In this document: positions 23,198 to 30,225 of the stretch, one piece after another
Numbering within the stretch: position 1 is the stretch's first letter
How the letters are laid out: every line of letters begins with the position of its first letter
DNA from: Alphaproteobacteria bacterium
GTDB lineage: Bacteria; Pseudomonadota; Alphaproteobacteria; Micavibrionales; UBA2020
Reading direction: 5' to 3'
Assembly: GCA_030682495.1 (NCBI GenBank)
Contig: JAUXOC010000064.1
Location: 1 to 42,875 of the forward strand
Length of the DNA stretch: 42,875 nucleotides
The notes under the pieces: model-generated
What the model was told of the DNA's origin: nothing
Database searches by the model: none
The model's input: only the letters and a program-made list of their open reading frames with translations
Program-made: the position numbers and the translations under genes

Positions 23198-23926
23198 TTA
23201 GGCTGCGGCGGCGCGCAGGCTCTCGACGATATCGGCAGCGGCGCGGGCGGGGTCTTTGGCTTCTGTGATCGGGCGGCCGATGACAAGGGCATCTGCGCCG
23301 AGCGCCGCGGCTTCCTGCGGGGTCATGATACGTTTCTGGTCGCCCGCCGCCGATCCGGCAGGACGAATCCCCGGCACAACCAGCGCAAAACCCGCCCCGC
23401 AGAGGGCGCGCAGGCGCGCAATTTCCTGCGGCGAGCAGACCGCGCCGCCCATGCCGCTGTCCTTGGCGAGCACGGCCAGTCGCGCCACCTGATCGGCAGG
23501 GGTATCAGACACGCCGATACCGTGCAGATCCTGCGCATCCATATGCGTTAGTACCGTGACGCCGAGCAGAACCGGCGCGGCGATGCCGGTTTTATCCTGC
23601 ACCTCGGCCGCGGCCAGCACCGCTGCGCGCATCATCTCGCCCCCGCCGCCGGCATGCAGCGTCAGATAATCGGCGCGGCAGCGCATCGCGCTGCGCACCG
23701 CCCCCGCCACCGTATTGGGAATGTCGTGCAGTTTGAGGTCGAGGAATATTTTTACCCCGTCCCCCGCCGCCGCGCGTACGGCATCAATCCCGCGCGGCCC
23801 TTCGGCGATAAAAAATTCCAGCCCCAGTTTCAGATCGACGCCTGTGCCCTTCAGCTTTGCCGTCAGGTCCAGCGCGCCGGACAGGTCAGGCGCATCGATG
23901 GCGCAGAAAATGCGGGGGATGTGCAT
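23198..23926 (-). CDS. pyrF: Orotidine-5'-phosphate decarboxylase PyrF
   Basis: A 242-aa TIM-barrel enzyme that makes UMP from OMP, the last step of pyrimidine synthesis. The catalytic Asp-Lys-Asp segment is FLDLKLHDIPNTVAGAV. Other family landmarks are FCAIDAPDLSGALDL near the start, the LGVTVLTH strand, VVPGIRPAGSAAGDQKRIMTP with the phosphate-binding region, and ALVIGRPITEAKDPARAA. Length is normal. It follows ridA by 14 bp on the same strand, so the two are co-transcribed. The identification is secure. Confidence 0.97.
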   Translation of the reverse strand: MHIPRIFCAIDAPDLSGALDLTAKLKGTGVDLKLGLEFFIAEGPRGIDAVRAAAGDGVKIFLDLKLHDIPNTVAGAVRSAMRCRADYLTLHAGGGGEMMRAAVLAAAEVQDKTGIAAPVLLGVTVLTHMDAQDLHGIGVSDTPADQVARLAVLAKDSGMGGAVCSPQEIARLRALCGAGFALVVPGIRPAGSAAGDQKRIMTPQEAAALGADALVIGRPITEAKDPARAAADIVESLRAAAA

Positions 23927-23940
23927 GTTGTTTTCTATGC

Positions 23941-24411
23941 TCAGACCAGCTCGAAAATCGCGTCTACTTCAACCGCCGCCCCAAAAGGCAGCGCAGCAAC
24001 GCCGACTGCGAAACGCGCATGTCTGCCCGCATCGCCGAGCGCGCCGACAATCAGATCGGAGGCGCTGTTGATGACTTTGGGATGATCGAAGAAATCTGTG
24101 GTCGAAGCCACGAAGCCGCCCAGTTTCACGCAGCGTGCGATGCGCGACAGGTCACCGTCCAGCGCGGCATTGGCCTGCGCGAGAATATTGACGGCGCAAA
24201 GACGTGCGGCATCCTGCCCTTGCTCTAGCGTGGCGTCGCGGCCCAGCTGGCCTTTGACCATCTGGCCGTCCAGCCCGACGGGCAACTGGCCGGAGATATA
24301 AAGCGTCTTGCCCGATATCACAAAGGGCACGTAATTGGCGACCGGCGCGGCGGGTGTGGGCAGCGTGACGCCGAGGGATTGCAGACGTTCCTGAATGGCA
24401 GATGCGGACAT
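23941..24411 (-). CDS. RidA family protein
   Basis: A 156-aa member of the YjgF/YER057c/UK114 (RidA) superfamily. Typical members hydrolyse reactive enamine or imine intermediates. Family features are LQSLGVTLPTPAAPVANYVPF, the LYISGQLP strand, NILAQANAALDGDLSRIARCVKL and the C-terminal block ARFAVGVAALPFGAAVEVDAIF with the conserved Arg. It is longer than classical RidA (about 128 aa) and fits the subgroup that acts as a general clean-up protein. It is upstream of pyrF by 14 bp. Exact substrate is unknown. Confidence 0.92.
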   Translation of the reverse strand: MSASAIQERLQSLGVTLPTPAAPVANYVPFVISGKTLYISGQLPVGLDGQMVKGQLGRDATLEQGQDAARLCAVNILAQANAALDGDLSRIARCVKLGGFVASTTDFFDHPKVINSASDLIVGALGDAGRHARFAVGVAALPFGAAVEVDAIFELV

Positions 24412-24496
24412 GAAAAAACTCCTTTGGCGAGAAGCCTAAAGGAGCTTGTTCATCACTGCAATCTTTATGCGCCAGAAAACGCTCTGCGCTAAAAAA

Positions 24497-24673
24497 TCAG
24501 AAGGCGTTGCTGAGATCGATTTTGGCGAATTTTTTATATTCCGCATCCACCTGCGCTTCGGTCGTCGCAGCGGCGGCGCGGCGCGGGAAAGCTTCCTTGA
24601 AGGCACCGCGGACATCCGGCATGGTCGCTGCCCAAGCATCGCTGTTCGGGAAATGTGTGCCTTCTTTACCCAT
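24497..24673 (-). CDS. Small 58-aa protein of unknown function
   Basis: A short gene that is easily missed. The ATG at 24673 has an excellent ribosome-binding site (GAAGGAGAG) at normal spacing. The product begins MGKEGTHFPNSDAWAATMPD and continues with a helical stretch (VRGAFKEAFPR), an Ala-rich linker and a helix (TEAQVDAEYKKFAKIDLSNAF). It has no signal or membrane segment and looks like a small cytosolic helical protein. It is 85 bp upstream of ridA on the same strand, so it may be the first gene of the ridA-pyrF transcript. I do not recognise a family. The good start signal, the sensible composition and the third-position GC bias support it as real. Confidence 0.7.
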   Translation of the reverse strand: MGKEGTHFPNSDAWAATMPDVRGAFKEAFPRRAAAATTEAQVDAEYKKFAKIDLSNAF

Positions 24674-24739
24674 GTACCGCTCTCCTTCGTGTGCTGTGTT
24701 CGATTCTGGTAACAGCTACAGAATGTCATATCTTCCTTA

Positions 24740-24971
24740 ATGATATCCTAACGCCGGTTAAAAATTGGCTAGTACGGGGTATAATTATTTATGGCTTTGA
24801 TTTTATTGTATATTTATCTCCTCCGCTTCGCTTGAATAAACAGAGATCAGATATTTTTCATAGGCTTGAGTGGCCGAAGCCTTGCCCGCAGCGGGTGGCG
24901 CACCGTCTTTCGCTGCGCGAATCCCCCTGCCGAAGAATGGGCTGGGGCGTTTCAAAAGAGCCCCTTTATAA
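24740..24971 (+). other. Structured non-coding stretch, possible small RNA
   Basis: No gene is supported here. The plus strand has a perfect TATAAT at 24780-24785 with only a poor -35 (GTTAAA at 17 bp). It is followed by stems GGCTT/AAGCC (24863-24881) and CGCAGCG/CGCTGCG (24887-24917, enclosing GGTG/CACC), then the long palindrome at 24972-25095. This would suit a structured RNA, but promoter and transcript are unproven. Confidence 0.25.
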
Positions 24972-25095
24972 ATTTAGACGATCATCCCCTTGAAGCACGC
25001 ATCCTCCTTTTTGTCATACCGGCTGTCATGCTCCGCATGCAAAGCATGGCGCCAGTATGACGAGGTACGTGTTTCAAGGGGATGATCGTCTAAAT
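24972..25095. repeat. 124-bp nested palindrome with perfect 23-bp terminal inverted repeats
   Basis: The outer arms 24972-24994 and 25073-25095 are exact inverted copies (ATTTAGACGATCATCCCC...). The pairing continues inward for about ten bases with three mismatches. A second inverted repeat is nested inside, from GTCATACCGGC at 25013 to GCCAGTATGAC ending at 25061. It contains no plausible gene. It could be a MITE-like or REP-like mobile repeat, and it lies where it could terminate the gene ending at 25136. Confidence 0.85.
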
Positions 25096-25135
25096 AAATG
25101 TCTGCTGCCCCGTCCGCAGACCCGGCCGAAGTATT

Positions 25136-27739
25136 TCAGCGGCGGGCGGATTTACGTTTCTTTGAGGCGGGACGCAGACCTGCCGCCGTTTCCTCTTCGG
25201 CAAAGAGGGAGGTTTCCCATTTCTGCGGCAAAAGCTCGGCGGGTTGCAGCAGCGATGCGCCTTCACGCCAGAGCGATGCGCGCTTCACGCCGGTTTCCCA
25301 GGCCATCAGTGCCAGTTTTTGCATCTCGTCAATGCCGGTATGATGATCGAGGATCAGGGTTTGCAAAACAGCGCCGCATAAGAACGGCTCCACCGCCGCC
25401 TGCATCGCAATTTGCGCGGAGAGGCCTACGCGGCGGATGCCGCTGCCGGAGGGCAAAAGACAGTCAAACACATCCAGATGCTGCGGCAGCAGATGCGGTG
25501 CGCCTTCGAGCGTCATCGCCCCGCAGGCATGCAGGCTGGCTGCATCGATATCATCATCCGAAAAACCAAGCGCGGCGAGGACATCTTCGGCATCGCCAAT
25601 CGGCAGTTCATCGGCGCCTGCGCCCAGCGTCCAGCGATTGAAAACATAGCGCAAGTCTTGCGCGGCGGGCAACAAACGCTCCACCGCCGCGATCATCTCG
25701 GGCGTCACGCCTTTGGCCGCCAGCGTTTTGTGGTTGATGCAAGGCGCATCCAGAAGCGTGCCGTGTCCGGTGGCATAGGCGTGAATATCGTCGATCTGCC
25801 GCGCGCTATAGCCGAGGCGTTTCAGCGCGGCGGGCACAGCGGGGTTGAGCTTTTTGCCGTACAGCATACCGACATCCGCCGTATCGCCAAAGAAACCTTC
25901 AAAACGCACCGGCGCGGCTTCGGGCGCGATATCGCGGCAGGTGACACCCAGTAGCGCCTGCACATCCAAAGACGTCCAAAGCCCTGTCAGATGCGCATGG
26001 CGAAAGCCCTGTTCCTTGCCAATTGCATAGGCGCGCTGCCAAACATCGGCCAGCGCCGGGGCGAGCGTTTTGTCGGACGAGAGCGCGGTATTCAAAACCG
26101 GCAGGCGGCGCATCACGCCCTTGGCCGTGCCGCGCGCGCCGCTTTGGGCTTCCATTTTGCCGCGCATCGCCGCCAGTCTGTCGCGCGATTCCGCTGCGTA
26201 GTCATCGTATGCGCCCAGCCGGTCGGCCATTTCGGCGGAGGCCAGCTGCGCCGCGCCCGACACCAGCGCCGTGACCTGCGCCCCCAGCGTGCGCGCCGCA
26301 TCGCTGTCAAAACCGCTGCCCGCCGACATCAAAAGACCGCCCAGACCGCTATAACCGATCACAACCGGACGGCGCGCGCGGGTCGCCGCCGAAAGACCGG
26401 GCATTTCCAGCGCCGCATCCAGCGCCACCGTCAACAGCCGCACCGCCTGCACCAGATGCCGCGCCGAAAGCAGCGCCTGCGTCTCTTCAATATCCACAAG
26501 CGCAGCCAGCGCGGTCAGATTAAGCGTACCGCCTGCGGCCTCGACCCCCGGTACAGAAACCAAGGCCTGCGCCACAGCCAGATTTTCAGCCCGCGCACCG
26601 CCTGCATCCTGCGCGCTGTCTCTGAAGAAAAACTGGGGCTGCCCGGATGTCCAGAGCGCTTCGCCGATCTTCGCCCAAAGCGCTTCGGCATCGGCATGGC
26701 GCACGGCTTCGCCCGCATCGCGCAGCAAGAACCCGTGGCCGGTCAGCGCGGTTTCGATGAAATCGTCCGAGACGGACAAAACGGTTTGCAGCGGCGGCGT
26801 TTGCGGCGCGTCGATATCGACAGCAGAAATCTCCAGCCGCTCGAAGCCTTGCTGTGCGTAATCAATCGCACGGCGCAAAAGCGTTTCGGGCGCGCCGGCC
26901 GCCCGCATATCCTGTACCGCGCGCGACAGTTTGCCGTTAAAAGAAGTATCAAAACCGCGCAGCGCATCGCGGTCGCAAGATTGCGTCACGACGCCTGCGG
27001 CTTCGTCCATCAGACGCCGGCCAAGGTCGCGGGAGAGCGCATCTATTTCCTGTTCCGTCTGCCGGTTGATGATTGCCAGCGCCTGATCGTGCTCTGCCGG
27101 AATAACCGCGCAAAGCGGCGCGGCATCGCCGTCCAGCGCGGCAATATCGGCCAAAATCGACAGGCGGCGGCCGGCATCGGCAACCGTGCTGTCCGGCGTC
27201 AGGGCAATCGTGCCGTAAGGCAGCGCGGGCGATGCGAAATCCTCCGGCAGTGGCGCGATGCGTTCTGTCGGTATATAGGCACGCGCAAAAGCGGCGCCAT
27301 AAGCCCAGTCCAGCCCCGCCGTGGCCAGCAGGGAAATCTCGGGCAAAGCGATACGGTGCAGCATGACATGGCAAAGCTCGTCATAAAAAATGCGCGCTTC
27401 CAGATCATCATCAAACAGCCCTGCGCGATGTGCCGCATGGCAAAGCCCGCCTGCCACGCGGTGCAGAACGTCGCGCAGATCGGACTCTGTTGAGACCGCC
27501 GCGTCCCCCTCTGCCGTATGCGGGCAGAGCCAGACCGGCAGTGCGCCATCGCTTTGCGGCTTCAGTGCGCCCTGCGGCGGACGCGGGGCAAAAACTTTTT
27601 CGGCCAGCACGTCACAGGCCGCCTGCCCCCAGAAAACCGGCAAACGGTACACGCCGCCCTCCGCCGCCGTATAATCACGCCAGCGGACGGTGTCGAAAGG
27701 ATGAATTCCTTCGGTTGTATAGAGGCGCTCGAAACGCAT
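25136..27739 (-). CDS. Degenerate class II ribonucleotide reductase (NrdJ) homologue
   Basis: A protein of 867 aa (ATG at 27739, AGGA five bases ahead); genuine alphaproteobacterial NrdJ is about 1200 aa. The scaffold is clear: N-terminus FERLYTTEGIHPFDTVRW; FDDDLEARIFYDELCHVML; GLDWAYGAAF; SDDFIETALTGHGFLLRDAG; YSGLGGLLMSAGSGFDSDAAR then SAEMADRLGAYDDY; LGYSARQIDDIHAYATGHGTL; ACGAMTLEGAPHLLPQHLDVFD; and a final QPAELLPQ. The working parts are missing: no NPCSE-type motif with the thiyl-radical Cys, no APTGTI phosphate loop (the site reads LTGLWTSLDVQ), no C-terminal Cys pair, and the central barrel is shortened. It ends in a basic tail (SKKRKSARR). It is probably a non-catalytic paralogue; function unknown. 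The frame is intact over 2.6 kb, so it is not a pseudogene. Confidence 0.8.
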   Translation of the reverse strand: MRFERLYTTEGIHPFDTVRWRDYTAAEGGVYRLPVFWGQAACDVLAEKVFAPRPPQGALKPQSDGALPVWLCPHTAEGDAAVSTESDLRDVLHRVAGGLCHAAHRAGLFDDDLEARIFYDELCHVMLHRIALPEISLLATAGLDWAYGAAFARAYIPTERIAPLPEDFASPALPYGTIALTPDSTVADAGRRLSILADIAALDGDAAPLCAVIPAEHDQALAIINRQTEQEIDALSRDLGRRLMDEAAGVVTQSCDRDALRGFDTSFNGKLSRAVQDMRAAGAPETLLRRAIDYAQQGFERLEISAVDIDAPQTPPLQTVLSVSDDFIETALTGHGFLLRDAGEAVRHADAEALWAKIGEALWTSGQPQFFFRDSAQDAGGARAENLAVAQALVSVPGVEAAGGTLNLTALAALVDIEETQALLSARHLVQAVRLLTVALDAALEMPGLSAATRARRPVVIGYSGLGGLLMSAGSGFDSDAARTLGAQVTALVSGAAQLASAEMADRLGAYDDYAAESRDRLAAMRGKMEAQSGARGTAKGVMRRLPVLNTALSSDKTLAPALADVWQRAYAIGKEQGFRHAHLTGLWTSLDVQALLGVTCRDIAPEAAPVRFEGFFGDTADVGMLYGKKLNPAVPAALKRLGYSARQIDDIHAYATGHGTLLDAPCINHKTLAAKGVTPEMIAAVERLLPAAQDLRYVFNRWTLGAGADELPIGDAEDVLAALGFSDDDIDAASLHACGAMTLEGAPHLLPQHLDVFDCLLPSGSGIRRVGLSAQIAMQAAVEPFLCGAVLQTLILDHHTGIDEMQKLALMAWETGVKRASLWREGASLLQPAELLPQKWETSLFAEEETAAGLRPASKKRKSARR

Positions 27740-27740
27740 T

Positions 27741-27934
27741 AATATCCTGTTCCCGCTTGCCGCCCGCCAACCCAAGCGGGAACAGTAAGCGGTTTAATCC
27801 TGTCCCCGCTTGCCGCCCGCCAACCCAGGCGGGAACAGTAAGCGGTTTAATCCTGTTCCCGCTTGCCGCCCGCCAACCCAAGCGGGAACAGTAAGCGGTT
27901 TAATCCTGTCCCCACTTGCCGCCCGCCAAACCAT
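27741..27934. repeat. Tandem array of a 53-bp palindromic unit (3.6 copies)
   Basis: Units begin at 27745, 27798, 27851 and 27904, exactly 53 bp apart; the last is truncated. Each full unit holds CTGTTCCCGCTT and AAGCGGGAACAG (or a variant with C/T changes) around a 15-nt loop, so every copy can form a hairpin. The array ends one base before the start codon of the NrdJ-like gene, and the first copy supplies its ribosome-binding AGGA. Confidence 0.92.
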
Positions 27935-28553: not shown

Positions 28554-29042
28554 ATGCAAAGAAATATCGTTGAAACCGCCATGGGCGCACTGGTACTGGC
28601 TGTTGCCCTCGGCTTCGCCTTTTTCTTTCATACCACCGCACAGATCGGCGACAAAGACGGGTATGAACTGAAAGCCCGTTTCAGCAAGATCGACGGGCTT
28701 GAAACCGGCAGCCCGGTGAAAGTCAGCGGCATCAAAATCGGACGCGTCCTCGGCCTCAGCCTCGACCCTGAAAGCTATCAGGCCGAAGTGCGCATGAACA
28801 TCGACAACAACGTCAAGCTGCCGCGCGACACCGCCGCAGTCATCGCCAGCGCGGGTTTGCTGGACGGAAAATTTCTGACGCTGGAGCCGGGCGGGGATGA
28901 CGAAATGCTCGGTGCCGGTGATTTCATCGAATACACGCAATCCACGCCGGGGCTGGAGCAGCTGCTCGGTCAGGTTATTTTCAGCATGACCGACAAAAAA
29001 GACGACGCCGAAAAAGCGCCCGAGAAAGCGCCGATGCCCTGA
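28554..29042 (+). CDS. mlaD: Outer membrane lipid asymmetry protein MlaD
   Basis: A 162-aa MCE-domain protein with one N-terminal membrane segment (about residues 9-27, AMGALVLAVALGFAFFF). MlaD is the periplasmic substrate-binding hexamer of the Mla phospholipid transporter. The MCE domain is recognisable: YELKARFSKIDGLETGSPVKVSGIKIGRV, VKLPRDTAAVIASAGLLDGKFLTLEPGG, then the C-terminal helix PGLEQLLGQVIFS. GGAG precedes the ATG; a TTG two codons earlier is possible. The stop overlaps the start of the DUF2155 gene. MlaE and MlaF are not in the window. Confidence 0.93.
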   Translation: MQRNIVETAMGALVLAVALGFAFFFHTTAQIGDKDGYELKARFSKIDGLETGSPVKVSGIKIGRVLGLSLDPESYQAEVRMNIDNNVKLPRDTAAVIASAGLLDGKFLTLEPGGDDEMLGAGDFIEYTQSTPGLEQLLGQVIFSMTDKKDDAEKAPEKAPMP

Positions 29043-29584
29043 TGAGCCGCTTTTTGTTTTCCTTCTCTGCCCTGAAGCTGGCGGCGTTTTTCGCGGTTAT
29101 ACTGGCGGCGTTTTTTGCCGCTGGGCCCGCACAGGCGCGCGAGATGGAAGACATGAACGTCGTCGTCGTGCGCAGCATCGACAAACTGTCGGCGCGCACG
29201 CATACGTTTGACATTCCGGTCGACCGTACGGTGCAATTCGGCAAATCGCTGTTTATCAAAGTGCGCGCCTGCCGCAAATCCCCGCCGGTGGGGGAGCCGG
29301 AATCCGCTGCCTTTTTGCAAATCTGGGAGCGCAAGCCGCACGAAGACACTTCGCGCTGGGTTTTCAGCGGCTGGATGTTTGCATCCAACCCCGCCCTGTC
29401 GGCGATGGACCACCCTGTCTATGACGTCTGGGTGATTGACTGCAAAAAATCCGTGACCTCGGCAAAATCCGAAACATATTCATCCGAAGCCGCGCCGTCC
29501 GAAGCCGCGCCCGCAGCGGCAGACCCCGCCGCCGCAACGTCCGATACCGATGCCCTCGACACCGAAGCGTCACCCGAAGAATAG
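29042..29584 (+). CDS. DUF2155 family exported protein
   Basis: A 180-aa secreted protein. A signal peptide (ALKLAAFFAVILAAFFAAGPAQA) is followed by the DUF2155 domain: LDKL-like SIDKLSARTHTFDIPVDRTV, then FGKSLFIKVRACRKSPPVGEPESAAFLQIWE and GWMFASNPALSAMDHPVYDVWVIDC. Two conserved Cys residues (in RACRKSPP and VIDCKK) may pair. The last 45 residues are a low-complexity Ala/Ser/Asp/Glu tail. The stop codon of mlaD overlaps its ATG, so the two are coupled. Its 3' end overlaps the convergent aat gene by 166 bp. Molecular function of DUF2155 is not known; the linkage to MlaD suggests an envelope role. Confidence 0.92.
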   Translation: MSRFLFSFSALKLAAFFAVILAAFFAAGPAQAREMEDMNVVVVRSIDKLSARTHTFDIPVDRTVQFGKSLFIKVRACRKSPPVGEPESAAFLQIWERKPHEDTSRWVFSGWMFASNPALSAMDHPVYDVWVIDCKKSVTSAKSETYSSEAAPSEAAPAAADPAAATSDTDALDTEASPEE

Positions 29585-30225
29585 CCGCCGCGCCAGCGCA
29601 TAAACCTGACATCTGTCATCAACAGCGCATCGCGCAGACGCCGGTGATATTCCGCGCGCGGAATTTCGACGCAGCCGAATTGCAGCAGATGCGGGTTGAC
29701 AAATTGCGCATCCCAAAGCGCGAAGCCTCGCGCCCTGAGCCGTGCGGCCAGATGCACAAAACCAACCTTGCTGGCATCACGCGCGCGCGAAAACATGCTC
29801 TCGCCAAAAAATGCACCGCCCAGTGCAATACCGTAAAGCCCGCCGACGATGAGGCCGCTGCCTCTTTCGCGCACCTCTACACTATGCGCAAAGCCGCGCC
29901 AGTGCGTTTCGGTATAGAGTGCGATGATATCCTCGTTGATCCATGTTTCGGCACGCGCATCGGCGCAGCTGCGGATCACCGCCGCAAAATCGCGATTGAA
30001 CGTGACGTCATAGGTACGCGCGCGCACGCTGCGCCGCAGACGCGCCGGAATATGCAGCGCGTCCAGCGGCAAAACGCCCCGCTGCTCCGGATCATACCAG
30101 CCGATACCCTCGGCATGACGTCCTTCGGCCATCGGAAAAACACCGGCGGCATAGGCACCAAGCAAAAGATCGGGCGTTAGCACGATACTGTCGTTGTTAT
30201 TTTCTGTGTCGTCGGCGCCGGACAT
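29419..30225 (-). CDS. aat: Leucyl/phenylalanyl-tRNA--protein transferase Aat with antisense-derived tail
   Basis: A 268-aa enzyme that attaches Leu or Phe to proteins with basic N-termini and sends them to ClpS/ClpAP. Family motifs: LLLGAYAAGVFPMAEGR, IGWYDPEQRGVLPLDALHIP, GLIVGGLYGIALGGAFFGESMFS, LRARGFALWDAQFVNPHLLQFG and IPRAEYHRRLRDAL. The core ends near residue 215 at RWRGGYSSG, where other family members finish. The remaining ~53 residues are a Ser/Ala-rich tail coded by the antisense strand of the DUF2155 low-complexity tail. This suggests loss of the original stop codon. The catalytic core is complete. Confidence 0.93.
   Translation of the reverse strand: MSGADDTENNNDSIVLTPDLLLGAYAAGVFPMAEGRHAEGIGWYDPEQRGVLPLDALHIPARLRRSVRARTYDVTFNRDFAAVIRSCADARAETWINEDIIALYTETHWRGFAHSVEVRERGSGLIVGGLYGIALGGAFFGESMFSRARDASKVGFVHLAARLRARGFALWDAQFVNPHLLQFGCVEIPRAEYHRRLRDALLMTDVRFMRWRGGYSSGDASVSRASVSDVAAAGSAAAGAASDGAASDEYVSDFAEVTDFLQSITQTS

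Follow-up and report, generated by a model that had tools for sequence, protein, structure and literature searches.

A class II ribonucleotide reductase gene lacking its catalytic motifs at the ancestral nrdJ locus of an alphaproteobacterium, and its counterparts elsewhere in the class

The window analysed here, that is, the whole stretch of 42,875 nucleotides, carries on its minus strand an open reading frame of 867 codons derived from the class II ribonucleotide reductase (RNR) gene nrdJ. A preliminary description had reported the frame as intact, and this is confirmed at the same coordinates, with the addition of the strand, which had not been given. The gene and its neighbours are as follows.

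23198..23926, minus strand: pyrF (PF00215), conserved on the YjgF/Rid flank in much of the family
23941..24411, minus strand: YjgF/Rid family gene (PF14588), conserved on the flank opposite NDUFA12
25136..27739, minus strand: NrdJ-derived gene devoid of catalytic motifs; start codon ATG at 27739, product of 867 aa
28128..28514, plus strand: NDUFA12 (PF05071), the divergent neighbour that marks the ancestral nrdJ locus
28554..29039, plus strand: mlaD (PF02470), nrdJ locus
29144..29443, plus strand: DUF2155 gene (PF09923), nrdJ locus
29419..30225, minus strand: aat (PF03588), nrdJ locus

A 53-bp tandem repeat of 3.6 copies (27744-27933) stops 4 bp before the nrdJ ATG, and an upstream TTG start at 27775 falls within this repeat.

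Homology of the translated product to class II RNRs lies far above chance in the Pfam, NCBIfam and structure-derived matches alike. The 867-aa protein matches the Pfam models Ribonuc_red_lgC (1e-22) and Ribonuc_red_2_N (2e-13) above the gathering score, and the NrdJ of Rhodobacter sphaeroides (7b9q) matches it at 2e-89 over residues 32-149 and 253-834. The NCBIfam NrdJ model NF005736 is matched at 3e-113, yet with 380 bits the protein falls below the cut-off of 1737, while a genuine NrdJ (L079) reaches 2190 bits on the same model. The NrdJ-like segments quoted earlier for this product are real, the first of them being LFDDDLEARIFYDELCH.

None of the motifs of the active enzyme, namely N-x-C-x-E with the thiyl-radical Cys, PTGT, the Cys of PHACFIQ and the C-terminal redox pair with its zinc domain, was found in the window protein. 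It contains eleven Cys in total, none of them at catalytic positions, and the six-Cys C-terminus of genuine NrdJ is absent. The preliminary list of missing motifs (N-x-C-x-E, PTGT and the C-terminal Cys pair) was correct, while its figure of about 300 lost barrel residues was not: the barrel has lost NrdJ residues 173-217, and about 60 further residues (to ~280) are unrecognisable. The second loss relative to genuine NrdJ comprises the last ~255 residues, which make up the whole C-terminal TSCPD (IscU-like) and Cys-rich region. A motif search for NxCxE, PTGT and PHAC likewise found none in all 16 carriers of the gene in the window's family, nor in G026 and G027; NxCxE and PTGT are present in each of the 16 genuine NrdJ frames examined. 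From this loss of motifs we infer that the window protein no longer reduces nucleotides, and its description as non-catalytic is supported at the sequence level. The parts kept and lost are arranged as follows.

27293..27739, minus strand: N-terminal class II RNR domain, kept (aa 1-149; Ribonuc_red_2_N match at aa 33-128)
27275..27280, minus strand: junction at aa 154/155; by comparison with genuine NrdJ, a block corresponding to its residues 173-217, which includes the first active-site Cys (PHACFIQ), is deleted here
25940..27292, minus strand: remaining alpha/beta barrel (aa 150-600; Ribonuc_red_lgC match, model superposes on 7b9q)
26519..26590, minus strand: site of the lost finger-loop N-x-C-x-E and second redox Cys (~aa 384-407, ENLAVAQ...GGTLNL), by alignment
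25958..25978, minus strand: site of the lost PTGT loop (~aa 588-594; WTSLDVQ replaces APTGTIG), by alignment
25430..25843, minus strand: insert domain of alphaproteobacterial NrdJ (~aa 633-770; GHGTLLDAP..INH, FNRWTLG, CGAMTLEGAPHL), the best conserved part
25238..25429, minus strand: last barrel segment (aa 771-834; 7b9q match and model superposition)
25139..25237, minus strand: tail that is short, variable and disordered (pLDDT about 30-47) and replaces the TSCPD (IscU-like) and Cys-rich domains

The insert domain of the window protein keeps 77% of the NrdJ-invariant residues, with a pLDDT mostly of 88-96. In R. sphaeroides NrdJ this insert is known as the HUG domain and reportedly stabilises the active dimer.

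An AlphaFold2 model built from a 30-row alignment (pLDDT 85.5, pTM 0.86) superposes on 7b9q with a Z-score of 46.4 (2.7 A, 766 residues aligned), well above its match to the NrdJ of Thermotoga maritima (Z 32) and to class I enzymes (Z about 30). This alignment includes genuine NrdJ sequences and may bias the model towards the NrdJ fold, but a model from the 14 non-catalytic relatives alone still matches 7b9q (Z 44.6, rmsd 6.3 A), although it is poor in the insert domain, which is better modelled with the 30-row alignment. In these predictions the NrdJ fold appears to be retained; they are silent on activity.

The ancestral order of the locus is accB-accC-aat-DUF2155-mlaD-NDUFA12-[nrdJ], and in other alphaproteobacteria genuine NrdJ occupies this place. 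Genuine NrdJ of ~1200-1270 aa adjoins NDUFA12 and, as far as each contig extends, mlaD, DUF2155, aat, accC and accB in Desertibaculum, MarineAlpha3, Kiloniellaceae and other assemblies, and the same placement was found in 14 of 20 additional genomes with genuine NrdJ sampled from the class. As the window gene shares this position with genuine NrdJ, it is nrdJ itself, dead in place. Its description as a paralogue was mistaken: the gene is an orthologue in its ancestral position, and a search of the genome for a second nrdJ found none. Like alphaproteobacterial NrdJ (NF005736; 7b9p/7b9q), the window protein has the domain order to ~residue 925, the insert domain, the predicted fold and the chromosomal locus; unlike it, the window protein lacks the catalytic and redox motifs, TSCPD and the Cys-rich domain.

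In the window's family, 15 of the 17 other genomes carry the dead nrdJ, and beyond the family it was found in one f4 and one f5 genome. A single-protein query over the named genomes gave no matches, while an alignment query found relatives; NrdJ relatives on plasmid records are distant, 29-32% identical among the ten listed. At 1e-20, 124 of the 142 genomes of the order gave no match, and the protein is therefore dispensable in many relatives, although many of the compared genomes are fragmented drafts in which absence calls hinge on completeness. Within the family, identity to the window protein is 40-45%, and the matched frame is free of internal stops in all 16 carriers, several frames ending at contig edges. 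Simple pairwise counting (Nei-Gojobori type, not tree-based) gives dN/dS values of 0.036-0.18 between close relatives, with the insert domain the most, or among the most, constrained parts. The preliminary suggestion that the gene has been kept is borne out by the open frames and by these values, against the ~1 expected for a decaying gene. In the f4 genome (G026), the protein, which lies on two contig ends, retains the TSCPD and Cys-rich domains, with SPSGGY replacing NPCSEY. In yet another family of the order, a 151-aa frame (G034 C4:1938-2270) matches the TSCPD part of NrdJ alone.

Dead NrdJ was furthermore found in 13 genomes of a sample of 385 from the class, belonging to at least three further clades; this screen used scores and frame lengths, so that the number is a lower bound and some cases may be missed or misassembled. 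The NDUFA12-side neighbours adjoin the dead gene in 12 of these 13 genomes, with YjgF alone beside it in G358. Brevundimonas variabilis (L096) and an alphaproteobacterial assembly (L095) are named relatives with the same kind of dead NrdJ. In a FastTree tree of the neighbouring genes, the window's order groups with G522, G447 and f122 (support 0.998), and the remaining dead lineages fall in at least three separate places; in a tree of the slowly evolving TSCPD domain, dead NrdJ is scattered among genuine-NrdJ lineages. A full-length gene tree groups all dead NrdJ (support 1.000) on very long branches. A single origin of all dead NrdJ was considered and rejected on the scatter in the former two trees. 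The full-length grouping is read as long-branch attraction, and the claim is accordingly limited to at least three further clades, with no count of losses. In one lineage the gene has come apart: in the one-contig genome G439, the NrdJ relic lies in two pieces 2.1 Mb apart (L189, L190), and it is whole in the sister genome G516.

The eight tabulated dead proteins that possess a TSCPD domain keep 88-99% of its invariant residues, as against 9-43% in the finger region. At the Cys-rich end, six such proteins have exactly four Cys within the last 60 residues. In five of the six, the CxxC...CxxC arrangement matches in alignment the zinc-binding positions 920, 923, 936 and 939 of the S. nassauensis NrdJ, and the redox Cys 933 and 945 are lost (assignment of ligands and redox Cys: PMC5704485); the sixth (G323) has a longer spacing and was missed by the pattern search, but both CxxC pairs are present. 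Lost electron transfer with retained structure would be expected to leave such a pattern.

The only other RNR large subunit found in the window genome is the class I NrdA, with NrdB adjacent, and dNTP production in this genome is by class I NrdAB. All 31 dead-NrdJ genomes have a further RNR, detected as class I NrdB in 28 of them and as class III NrdD in the remaining three. The cobalamin adenosyltransferase family PF01923 was detected in 8 of the 31 dead-NrdJ genomes vs 28 of 29 genuine-NrdJ genomes. Fisher tests of dead against genuine give p values of 0.003 (NrdB) and 7e-9 (PF01923), uncorrected for shared ancestry. Neither PF01923 nor the second adenosyltransferase family, PF02572, was found in any of the 18 carriers of the window's order; the enzyme is absent throughout the clade formed by this order with G522, G447 and f122, and in G358, and is retained in the dead-NrdJ lineages f128, f111, f70 and f152. 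A cobalamin sensor, one of the roles first proposed for the window protein, is therefore unlikely in the window's order. The proposal of a nucleotide sensor is disfavoured by inference, since the stretch in which the class II specificity site would be expected has been lost or can no longer be recognised, while a role as partner or regulator of a true NrdJ is excluded in the window genome because no true NrdJ was found there.

The window gene is almost certainly the alphaproteobacterial nrdJ locus itself, turned pseudoenzyme: the catalytic residues are absent, yet selection maintains the gene. The reading we favour, and consider somewhat probable, is that this pseudoenzyme is kept for a catalysis-independent function, probably of a scaffolding kind. 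In a lineage that possessed another RNR and had ceased to make adenosylcobalamin, the radical and phosphate-binding chemistry would have been lost, and the folded body, consisting of the N-terminal domain, the barrel shell and the insert domain, would then have been held by purifying selection. The dead protein may serve as a scaffold or regulator by means of a surface for protein-protein contacts or assembly, most likely that of its insert domain, and the retained role would be a non-catalytic job already present in genuine NrdJ. The scaffold mechanism as such is put forward tentatively, as one possibility.

Among the alternatives, a regulatory subunit of class I RNR survives best, in which dead NrdJ would bind NrdA/NrdB or shared reductants and tune dNTP supply. 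The natural dimerisation of RNR large subunits, the retained barrel and the presence of another RNR in every dead-NrdJ genome would suit this role, but the one detected is class III in three genomes, and dead nrdJ is not adjacent to nrdAB. Nor was an NrdR-type box found upstream of the gene in the window's family, which says little because the control, the family's own nrdA, is also without one. We regard such a subunit as rather unlikely. A different enzyme or ligand sensor, acting through the residues H670, N701, C739 and H749 of the insert domain, is improbable: all four are unchanged in the 14 relatives aligned, but most of the motifs that hold them occur already in genuine NrdJ and are therefore not new, and the genome is without cobalamin adenosyltransferase.

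Slow decay, in which nrdJ became redundant beside NrdAB and the open frame reflects a time lag, would accommodate the loss of the gene in most of the order, its splitting in G439, the long branches and the differences between lineages in the parts lost. It is largely refuted by the dN/dS values, however; frames that remain open at 40-45% identity across four genera are too old and too clean for a lag, and the catalytic positions have been lost coherently, with the predicted core retained, so that decay appears improbable. That the protein is a still-active RNR with rebuilt motifs is scarcely credible, the overall fold being kept in prediction but NxCxE, PTGT, the first Cys, the C-terminal redox pair and the adenosyltransferase all being absent.

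The repeated occurrence of dead NrdJ in several alphaproteobacterial lineages suggests a second job for the enzyme. It is quite possible, if a little short of an even chance, that the class II RNR of alphaproteobacteria performs a second function that does not depend on catalysis, the sole one kept once another RNR supplies dNTPs, carried by the insert domain in some lineages, that of the window among them, and by TSCPD and a redox-dead zinc finger in others. As the insert domain is kept here and TSCPD elsewhere, there is perhaps no single shared function. If such a function exists, the dead proteins represent natural separation-of-function mutants. Lineages that have given up ribonucleotide reduction, and in which TSCPD is nearly unchanged or the insert domain is kept instead, open the question directly to gene-removal tests in bacteria that can be cultured, for example Brevundimonas.

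The nearest precedent for the repurposing of an RNR, likewise a noncatalytic large subunit, is found in the R1 homologues of beta-herpesviruses (UL45, M45), which have lost catalytic residues and are kept for a protein-interaction role (PMC5469499). Those proteins are viral, class I-related and act on host signalling, whereas the window protein is of class II, chromosomal, orthologous and family-wide in bacteria. The split NrdJa/NrdJb and the C-terminal Cys-rich domain of NrdJd show that the TSCPD (IscU-like) region and the zinc region can be separated as modules (PMC5704485, PMC9669993); there the modules serve catalysis, whereas in the dead lineages they outlast it. In class II RNR the IscU-like domain has no reported role (PMC9669993), and no prior account of a bacterial RNR pseudoenzyme was found in the open literature searched. 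On the side of annotation, genes of this kind, whose only matches are to models of B12-dependent RNR, can falsely signal B12 dependence.

Additional small features were observed downstream of the dead nrdJ. A 28-nt inverted repeat with a 68-nt loop, REP- or MITE-like, lies at 24972-25095, and the interval between the dead gene and the YjgF gene (24412-25135) contains a small minus-strand ORF of ~58 aa (MGKEGTHFPNSDAWAATMPD...), with a similar small ORF at L055 7205-7393. ORFs belonging to a single homologous cluster, presumably ankyrin-like, were found near the dead nrdJ in two of the family's genera (L055-L058).
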